From a virus, in the IMG/VR virus record IMGVR_UViG_3300031162_000807, positions 1-42,422 of that record: DNA of 42,422 nucleotides. One strand, written 5' to 3'. Of this stretch, positions 39,965 through 42,422 are shown piece by piece. A program made the position numbers and the translations under genes. The number at the start of each line of letters is the position of its first letter. Positions within the stretch are counted from its first letter, which is position 1. A model generated the notes under the pieces. It worked only from the letters and a program-made list of their open reading frames with translations. It had not been told where the DNA came from and did not search any database.

Positions 39965-40234
39965 ATGCGACGATTTATGCGTTATTTTTTACGATGGCAG
40001 CTATCCACCCTAGTGTTATTACTGCTACTAGCGTTTATGCCCGGTTCGCTGTGGCTGAAAGTCGTAGTAGCTAACATGGGGGCATTTTTGGTGTATGCTA
40101 TCGCCCGTGCGGGGCGCCGAAAACAGTCGCATAGCGTGTCTCGTAGCTTGCGACACGGTCAAGAGTTTATTCCGTATCGGATGCATGTCTCGCTAATGAA
40201 TAAGCTAAAGTTCTTCAAATTTAATAAAAAGTGA
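39965..40234 (+). CDS. Basic two-helix membrane protein
   Basis: An 89-residue protein with two membrane segments (LSTLVLLLLLAFMPGSLWL and VVVANMGAFLVYAIA) and a strongly basic C-terminus (RAGRRKQSHSVSRSLRHG). A competing short frame from ATG 39961 (37 codons) exists but has no such pattern, so this frame is preferred. Stop and next start overlap (TGATG). A role in the inner membrane is likely; the function is unknown. Confidence 0.55.
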   Translation: MRRFMRYFLRWQLSTLVLLLLLAFMPGSLWLKVVVANMGAFLVYAIARAGRRKQSHSVSRSLRHGQEFIPYRMHVSLMNKLKFFKFNKK

Positions 40235-40402: not shown

Positions 40403-40648
40403 ATGAAAAAGCTGCCACACGTGTACACTGATAAAGCAGTGTGGGTTAGAGGAACCCCCCAACCAGGACGCGACCCGGCATGGTCTATGGTTCGCAAAGA
40501 ACATATTACCCACCTAGTTAAAGACACCTATAGGGAAGAGGACATCTACGATTTTTACGTTCATTTCACTAGCGGTCACGTGATGCTGGTAGACGGTTTA
40601 GCGTCCAAACTCACCATACAGGACCTATGGACATGGCTAAACACCTAA
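40403..40648 (+). CDS. Small hypothetical protein
   Basis: An 81-residue soluble protein with Trp and His (KAVWVRGTPQPGRDPAWSMV, YDFYVHFTSGHVMLVDGLAS). AAAGGAATTGAG upstream serves as ribosome site. It overlaps the next gene by 16 bases. I know no family. The sequence shows a gradual shift to C-ending codons relative to genes before 40.3 kb. Confidence 0.58.
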   Translation: MKKLPHVYTDKAVWVRGTPQPGRDPAWSMVRKEHITHLVKDTYREEDIYDFYVHFTSGHVMLVDGLASKLTIQDLWTWLNT

Positions 40649-40839
40649 CCCGCACGTTTACAAAACACCCTCATCAAGAAGGTATGACCTACCTGACGCA
40701 CGCTGTATTTGCAACAAAAATAGCTGCAGGGTTGATAATCGCAGCGTGTAAAGGTACAGTACATGCAGTCTTTCCTTTCTGGTTCCAAACCAGCATGAGC
40801 GACCATATTCGTAACGTAGCCACCCAACTGGAGCGCTAA
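40633..40839 (+). CDS. Small membrane protein of the DUF6356 type
   Basis: A 68-residue protein with a pattern I know from DUF6356: HLTRTFTKHPHQEGMTYLTH, then ATKIAAGLIIAACKGTVHAV and FPFWFQTS. It has one hydrophobic helix and a conserved-looking HA-FPF motif. I prefer ATG 40633, nine bases after AGGA, over ATG 40627 (three bases). The function of the family is unknown. It is coupled to the next gene by TAATG. Confidence 0.6.
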   Translation: MAKHLTRTFTKHPHQEGMTYLTHAVFATKIAAGLIIAACKGTVHAVFPFWFQTSMSDHIRNVATQLER

Positions 40840-41009
40840 TGGCAATCAGTCAACCCCTGCTGAAAACAAAGACAACATGGTATGTAGCGGCCGCTGTATT
40901 CCTGATTCTAAGCATCAAACCCACGTATAAAGCCCTACGAAAATGGGGCTACTCCCAAGTGACCGAAACCGCAAATTTCTTCGAAACAATAGGAACACTC
41001 CCCCAATGA
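40839..41009 (+). CDS. 56-residue single-span membrane protein
   Basis: ATG 40839 overlaps the previous stop (TAATG). It has one membrane segment (TWYVAAAVFLILSIKPTY) flanked by basic residues and a soluble tail ending IGTLPQ. Its stop overlaps the next start as ATGA (41006-41009). Codons end mainly in A or C, and T is already falling. Confidence 0.55.
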   Translation: MAISQPLLKTKTTWYVAAAVFLILSIKPTYKALRKWGYSQVTETANFFETIGTLPQ

Positions 41010-41344
41010 TCTACGAATTCACAGCCGGACACAACTACTGGTACATCGATACCGACCAAAAGTACCTCAAAATTACTGATAAAACCGACGAAACAATCAT
41101 CAAAGAAACCGACCAATTAGGGCTGCTAGTCCAAATTGAAGGCAATAGAATAGCCGCCTACGAAAGCACATACGCCCTAATCGGCGTATCAACCCCCATC
41201 GTAGACAACCACTTCTTCCTAGAAGACGGCAACGCTCATATCATTTGGCAAGAAGATCCCAAAGTCATCACCCTCTTCTTCGAAGGATCCAACAAAGCTG
41301 TCCGAGCCTACTGGGACCACAACCTAAACACCCCACCCCAATAA
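41006..41344 (+). CDS. Hypothetical protein, start of the G-poor gene block
   Basis: A 112-residue soluble, strand-rich protein (MIYEFTAGHNYWYIDTDQKY, HIIWQEDPKVITLFFEGS). The true start is ATG 41006 overlapping the previous stop; the longer in-frame extension to 40943 lies across the previous gene and is rejected. Ends NLNTPPQ followed by a stretch repeated after 42101. The coding strand is A/C-rich with very few G, unlike genes before 40 kb. Confidence 0.6.
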   Translation: MIYEFTAGHNYWYIDTDQKYLKITDKTDETIIKETDQLGLLVQIEGNRIAAYESTYALIGVSTPIVDNHFFLEDGNAHIIWQEDPKVITLFFEGSNKAVRAYWDHNLNTPPQ

Positions 41345-41386
41345 ACGACCGCTAAACACTTCCACGATCACAAAAGGAGCAAACCC

Positions 41387-41758
41387 ATGCACGAACAGCA
41401 CACACTACCCCTAGACTACGAACCCGACGCTTACAAACTGGCCCGCTCCACTGACCCAGAAACGTCAAAGACTGCGGCTCAGTCTATTTCGCTAGAACTG
41501 AAAGACAGTCACCGTTGGATTCTCAACTGGCTTATGGTTCACGGCCCAGCAACCGATGACGAGATCGCACTAGCAGCAGTTGACGCTAGTATAACGTCCC
41601 GCACCGAGTCGGCACGCAGGCAAGTCCGGACCCTGCGAGAAAAACACGAACTTATCGTTCCCGCAATCGATGAAACCACAGGAACCCAGCTTACGTCCGT
41701 CAACGCCTCCGGCAGACAAGCTCTCGCCTGGACGGCAAAGGAGCATAACCATGCATGA
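41387..41758 (+). CDS. Winged-helix-like protein with repeated N-terminal tag
   Basis: A 123-residue protein. The N-terminus MHEQHTLPLDYEPDAYK is nearly repeated at the start of the next gene. Residues about 45-95 look like a winged helix (SHRWILNWLMVHGPATDDEI, then TESARRQVRTLREKHELIVP), as in DprA-C-terminal-like or MarR-like proteins. It probably binds DNA. AAAAGGAG upstream. The stop overlaps the next start (ATGCATGA). Confidence 0.6.
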   Translation: MHEQHTLPLDYEPDAYKLARSTDPETSKTAAQSISLELKDSHRWILNWLMVHGPATDDEIALAAVDASITSRTESARRQVRTLREKHELIVPAIDETTGTQLTSVNASGRQALAWTAKEHNHA

Positions 41759-42101
41759 ACCACACTCACTACCCTTCGACTACGAACCCGACAACCCCAT
41801 CGTAACCATCAGCCTTAACCGGGAACAGATGGAAAAGTTCGCCAAAAACGAACTCAACAACAACAGTCCAGACTCCGACGCCTACCACTGGCTACTCACC
41901 GAAGCCGCCCCTGAAGACCGAGAAAAGATCGAAAAACTCGTACAAAACGAAATATGGACCCTCCTCACACAAGGACTATACGACTTAGACGACCTCCTCT
42001 GCGGACTCTACGAAGCCTACGTCCAAGCCTACCAAGCCTCAGGAACCATCCCCTACGGCCTACAACCCATCCGCTTCAACATAGACAACCCACCCCAATA
42101 A
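41751..42101 (+). CDS. Hypothetical protein sharing start tag with its neighbour
   Basis: A 116-residue acidic protein starting MHEPHSLPFDYEPD at ATG 41751 with AAAGGAG upstream; the ORF extension to 41670 overlaps the previous gene and is rejected. The middle is helical (SLNREQMEKFAKNELNNN, EDREKIEKLVQNEIWTLL). It ends NIDNPPQ, similar to the NLNTPPQ end of the gene at 41006. Strong A/C bias. Unknown function. Confidence 0.6.
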   Translation: MHEPHSLPFDYEPDNPIVTISLNREQMEKFAKNELNNNSPDSDAYHWLLTEAAPEDREKIEKLVQNEIWTLLTQGLYDLDDLLCGLYEAYVQAYQASGTIPYGLQPIRFNIDNPPQ

Positions 42102-42422
42102 ACAACCGCCTAATACCACCACGATCCAAAAACCCACCAACACACCAACTACCAAAAACCCCCCTACACCAACATGCAAAACATACTCCACATAGCACCC
42201 CCCACACTAGCCACCCTCACACTAATACTCACAATACTATACATAGACAAACACCACTAGACACGCCCCCAAAAACCACCTACAATAACCCAAAAGGGCC
42301 AAAACACAAACACACACACCCAAAGGCCCAAACCAATGACAAACCCCCTACACAAACTAACCAAAAACCACACAACCAATACACAACCACAACACCCCCA
42401 ACCCCCCCCCCACACCCCCCCC
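42102..42422 (+). other. A/C-rich, G- and T-depleted low-complexity terminus
   Basis: No convincing gene. G almost disappears: bases 42331-42422 contain one G and few T, ending in runs of C. A 28-codon hydrophobic frame at 42174-42260 (MQNILHIAPPTLATLTLILT) has no ribosome site and is weak. A frame from ATG 42336 with AAAGG upstream is open to the end but is mostly Pro/Thr/His from C-runs. GGGCC (42296) and GGCCC (42325) could pair. Either this is the edge of a highly skewed region or a sequencing/assembly artefact at a contig end. Confidence 0.6.

Follow-up and report, generated by a model that had tools for sequence, protein, structure and literature searches.

A sharp strand-composition switch inside whiB of uncultured phages: a candidate site of replication initiation

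Strand-composition gradients in described systems

Mitochondrial DNA carries G to A and T to C gradients that stem from the displaced single strand (PMC8565317); these are graded with single-stranded time and are strongest at third codon positions (PMC8565317, PMC3269015). In uncultured phages, namely the Aquificae virus TOSV (PMC7689252) and huge phages (PMC7162821), a change in the sign of the skew has been read as the start of replication, and in TOSV this switch is intergenic, between divergently transcribed genes (PMC7689252). At the T4 origins oriF and oriG, an upstream promoter provides a transcript that may prime leading-strand DNA, and leading-strand synthesis from the R-loop is limited to ~2.5 kb without the replicative helicase (PMC3016281).

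The locus described here is a switch of the + strand from A/C-rich to G/T-rich inside whiB. It resembles the mitochondrial case in the depletion of one strand, of the G to A and T to C type, and in a graded bias that is strongest at third positions. Unlike the mitochondrial gradient, it decays within 1−2 kb, is two-sided, changes sign abruptly inside a gene and belongs to a dsDNA phage. In contrast to the TOSV switch, it is intragenic and without divergent transcription, and its steep, local bias does not depend on gene direction. The likeness to oriF and oriG lies in a predicted upstream promoter whose transcript may prime leading-strand DNA, whereas the T4 origins have an RNA primer, a DNA unwinding element and a MotA-like factor (PMC3016281). 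The helicase-free limit of ~2.5 kb in T4 is close to the decay scale at whiB, and the two may be linked. In the open literature, skew-based calls of phage origins exist, and a kilobase-scale two-sided gradient like that at whiB was not found.

The A/C-rich end of the window and the switch in its relatives

The DNA analysed (the window) was a 42,422-bp phage fragment, an IMG/VR virus contig. Protein family matches included a tail sheath, a tape measure, a PolA-type polymerase, a sigma factor and an endolysin. The nearer relatives of the sheath were other uncultured contigs (56−83% identity), and those from isolates were Gordonia and Arthrobacter myophages (~30−34% identity), which together with whiB suggests an actinobacterial host. 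No nucleotide relatives of positions 1−25,000 or 35,001−42,422 were present among 50,697 phage records, and no cultured close relative or group member was found in the collections searched. The isolated sheath relative Gordonia phage Gray exhibited neither strong skew nor a step. Separately, two genes of the window (15,600−16,500 and 33,400−35,400) were observed to contain many degenerate ~49-nt repeats (VYDWSGSAWVQVG-like), the repeat being common to both despite the 17 kb between them.

Strand bias was scored on the + strand as (G+T−A−C)/length. An earlier note had described this strand as T/G-rich until about 40.2 kb and then increasingly A/C-rich up to the end, where G almost disappears, and the counts bear this out. 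Cumulative G+T minus A+C reached its maximum at 40,188. The last 1,422 nt scored −0.42, while the full set of equally long stretches in the first 40 kb averaged +0.14 (sd 0.05, minimum about +0.02 to +0.03). In 250-bp bins, the G+T share was.44 at 40,501−40,750 and fell toward the window end. The composition of 42,251−42,422 was A.44, C.48, G.05 and T.04, and the final 92 nt (42,331−42,422) comprised 49 C, 38 A, 4 T and a single G. The features of this region are as follows.

40188, no strand: sign change of the strand bias, at the peak of cumulative G+T minus A+C
40235−42422, + strand: A/C-rich left arm of the skew singularity, rising toward the window end, based on the bins, the 1,422-nt score and the homologous arm in relatives
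40403−40648, + strand: ORF of 81 aa, function unknown, coding strand A/C-rich
41006−41344, + strand: conserved ORF of 112 aa (start inferred) whose homologues in L046, L064 and G017 lie left of the step; third codon position −0.68
41387−41758, + strand: conserved ORF of 123 aa, matching PHROG 1123 (function unknown)
41751−42101, + strand: conserved ORF of 116 aa, function unknown; third codon position −0.79
42102−42335, + strand: non-coding stretch ahead of whiB; G+T minus A+C of −0.71
42258−42286, + strand: promoter-like TAGACA-17-TACAAT, degenerate in the window, aligned with TTGACA-17/18-TAAAAT/TAACAT/TAAACT of the relatives
42336−42422, + strand: 5' end of whiB, 29 codons with a Pro-rich linker, cut at the contig end; the step of the relatives lies further inside whiB

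Two contigs, L046 (3300025828_004278) and L045 (3300007346_000149), matched positions 41,389−42,422 of the window with 78% identity. Of these, L046 continues ~2.4 kb past the window end and identified the last 87 nt of the window as the start of whiB (Pfam Whib). The comparison with related genomes that the earlier note had called for recovered the homologous A/C-rich left arm (L045, L046, G017 and relatives) and the step in several independent assemblies. In L046, L060−L065 and L069, the + strand switched from A/C-rich to G/T-rich 72−180 nt past the start of the whiB match; in L066 a weaker switch was seen at ~170−270 nt. The position of the step differed by ~70−160 nt between lineages.

When seven loci were pooled, the 200 bp left of the step had a composition of A.43, C.36, G.09 and T.12, and the 200 bp to the right A.17, C.17, G.34 and T.32. 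The whole change fell within one 25-bp bin in the 5' part of whiB, and GC skew and TA skew shifted jointly at the step. In the pooled relatives, the decay constant of the bias was ~1.0 kb leftward and ~2.1 kb rightward. L067 and L068 have kept a whiB homologue, and the step is hardly visible in them.

The A/C-rich end of the window is the left side of a genuine and abrupt strand switch, found again inside whiB of uncultured relatives. Judged from these relatives, the step point of the window itself would lie ~0.1−0.2 kb beyond 42,422. An origin, a terminus or long-lived single-stranded DNA had been proposed near 40.5 kb; this placing did not hold, as only the sign change is found there, a mere crossing of the left arm with the background because the step point would sit past the window end.

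Polarity and strand dependence

A/C-to-G/T steps greater than 0.7 were present at 13 loci among 140 sequences, some of them the same phage in different samples, and no reverse step above 0.63 was found in this set. Such a step keeps its kind under strand reversal, and its polarity is therefore meaningful. Where tested, the steps were 6−12 sd beyond the rest of their own genomes. The distant phages L109/G032 (sheath 38% identical) and L119 exhibited the step 0.5−0.9 kb after the whiB start. The G032 assembly closes by an exact 127-bp end overlap and that of G030 is probably closed, its ends recurring ~169 bp inside with a mismatch; in both, the step is internal. In the relatives, the step forms the local minimum of cumulative G+T minus A+C, passing from A/C to G/T as at an origin, and the window holds the left arm only. 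This polarity (A/C left, G/T right) is not that of a terminus. Of the options raised earlier, the terminus was accordingly discarded, and the pattern points to a site of initiation where single-stranded DNA is long-lived.

Far from the step, the third-position excess on the + strand was nearly equal for + and − genes (G026, +0.22/+0.21; G029, +0.24/+0.23), and in a regression the effect of gene strand was at most 0.08. Near the step, + strand genes flank both sides, those on the left being A/C-rich and those on the right G/T-rich. Within 1.2 kb of the step, third codon positions scored −0.56 on the left and +0.84 on the right; the bias was largest at these positions and in non-coding DNA (−0.71). 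Composition thus tracks the DNA strand and not gene direction, as the earlier note had maintained, and the minus-strand genes at 38.6−39.5 kb that it had described as A/C-rich on the coding strand were so weakly (−0.10 and −0.07). The left arm reverses after ~2 kb and, farther left, the + strand stays G/T-rich up to 90 kb away (G017). In this long-range bias, two replichores of opposite sign reaching a distant terminus were not seen.

A probable replication start and other explanations

Based on the observed step, polarity, decay, strand dependence and conservation, we infer that the skew singularity probably marks a site of replication initiation at the 5' part of whiB, shaped by slow lagging-strand synthesis and deamination of single-stranded DNA. 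DNA synthesis would start there in both directions, displacing the − strand on the left and the + strand on the right. The displaced strand would stay single-stranded longest beside the start point owing to late lagging-strand synthesis, and deamination (C to T, A to G) would push the exposed strand to G/T and its partner to A/C. The outcome would be a step at the start point that decays over 1−2 kb. Farther out, forks would move mainly rightward, leaving a mild G/T excess along the whole + strand. The primer may be a transcript from the conserved whiB promoter ~200 bp upstream, held as an R-loop.

The joint change of GC and TA skew is expected if C and A are deaminated on one strand, and it supports exposed single-stranded DNA. 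The one-sign background suggests mainly rightward forks, and the short left arm leaves classical bidirectional forks continuing leftward unsupported. A bolder and rather doubtful possibility is a dsDNA phage lineage with a promoter-primed, mitochondria-like strand-displacement origin inside whiB, replication mainly rightward and a natural gradient of single-strand mutation steep enough for the sequence by itself to give the start site with a precision of tens of bases. If a replication start is the correct reading, assembled contigs alone would suffice to locate the replication starts of uncultured phages by steps of this sharpness. The gradients would be a natural record of the single-stranded time of each strand near the start site. 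The occurrence of strong, weak and absent steps among related phages makes the cause testable via their replication genes.

A T4-type R-loop origin has a promoter upstream that reads into the start site. In most relatives, a sigma-70-like promoter (TTGACA-17/18-TAAAAT/TAACAT/TAAACT) was predicted ~180−265 bp ahead of the step, recognized solely from its consensus and its conserved position. At the whiB step of the window's own group, the search found neither an initiator gene nor an initiator-binding array, be it a cluster of DnaA boxes or a series of iterons, and the hairpins there were not convincing. A search for the DnaB_C helicase gave no match in ten records. G032 contains a dense cluster of DnaA-box-like TTATCCACA/TGTGGATAA with CGAACANNTGTTCG palindromes at 100,300−101,850, which is 17 kb from the skew step and has no skew step of its own. 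The missing initiator array, this step-less cluster, the near-absence of the step in L067 and L068 and its shifting position are counted against an origin. Two ribbon-helix-helix genes are located near the step in both groups (that of the window and that of L109/G032 and L119), in opposite orientations, and their products are candidate step-site binders. The gene to the right of whiB was considered as a small terminase, an idea dropped because of its different label in PHROG 645 and the large distance to terL.

Contigs ending at one fixed nucleotide next to terminase genes, as a cos or pac terminus would give, were not found. If the linear phage DNA did have a favoured physical end at the step (a cos site, a pac cut or a protein-capped terminus), strand-displacing or recombination-primed synthesis from it could turn 5'-ended strands G/T-rich on both sides, and the polarity fits displacement of 5'-ended strands at both ends. 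The window, L045 and G017, three of a set of four closely related contigs, also stop at most ~0.3 kb left of the step; however, each does so at a different nucleotide, within low-complexity DNA made up of A and C only. No fewer than 10 contigs read through, whiB is intact across the step, G032 and probably G030 close elsewhere, and terL is 50−65 kb from the step. Resection by 5'-3' nucleases would moreover yield the opposite polarity. A physical end was therefore considered unlikely.

Even less is to be said for transcription-associated mutation or R-loops alone, with no replication start, where divergent transcription at the whiB promoter region would expose opposite strands on each side. The sigma-70-like promoter does occupy a conserved position ~200 bp upstream of the step, but the step is ~180 nt downstream of the expected transcription start and not at it. 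Genes on both sides are on the + strand, so the left side would need strong antisense transcription, and the far bias is nearly independent of gene direction. We regard this explanation as improbable.

Selection on proteins or codon usage, favouring A/C-rich low-complexity proteins to one side of the step and G/T-rich coding to the other, would draw on the N-terminal linker of whiB, which is Pro-rich and C-rich in all relatives and tolerates C-runs. It is very hard to reconcile with a bias that peaks at third codon positions and in non-coding DNA and that is missing from a relative with the same genes (L068); the almost unbiased whiB of L067 and L068 also argues against a coding need. Least probable of all is a sequencing or assembly artefact of poly-G reads at the contig end. 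It may be responsible for the exact C-run lengths in the last ~30 nt, missing in that form from the relatives, but not for the gradient, which covers 2.2 kb of conserved ORFs, aligns up to 42,422 with an independent contig at 78% identity and reappears across several independent assemblies.

Several other elements were observed around these loci. A palindrome, TACTAGTA, occurs in a conserved AGCCTACTAGTA element right after the whiB promoter (G026:43,879; G029:51,040; L060:7,955; G017:90,235). It precedes the step by ~155−175 bp in cases where the latter is known, and is rare elsewhere in these sequences. Pistol ribozymes (Rfam RF02679) were found in L046 (4776−4842, 73 bits) and L064 (4580−4649, 54 bits), ~2.9−3.5 kb left of the step; in the window none was above threshold. 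In L069 (9,577−9,997) and L066 (9,789−10,145), possible iterons or terminators were seen 1.5−2 kb right of the step, in the form of intergenic units such as AAAAAGTGGTATAGTTTTTTC-TTTTT repeated 50−110 bp apart.

Palindromes were also present near the steps of L084 and L120, and the combination of a palindrome with a repeat array only at a separate step in G021. L120 has five TTATCCACA boxes in ~130 bp (13,618−13,750); the stretch is of low complexity and lies 0.7 kb to the right of a further skew step. The G021 step (~16,280−23,000; L144−L145) shows a G/T excess of +0.63 that decays over 6 kb. It adjoins an array of CGAAC-N4-GTTCG palindromes and ~26-bp CCGACC..GTC repeats, and overlies a minus-strand SNF2-like helicase gene. 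The same SNF2-like helicase was found in G030 at ~88.6−90.5 kb, with a weaker skew peak.
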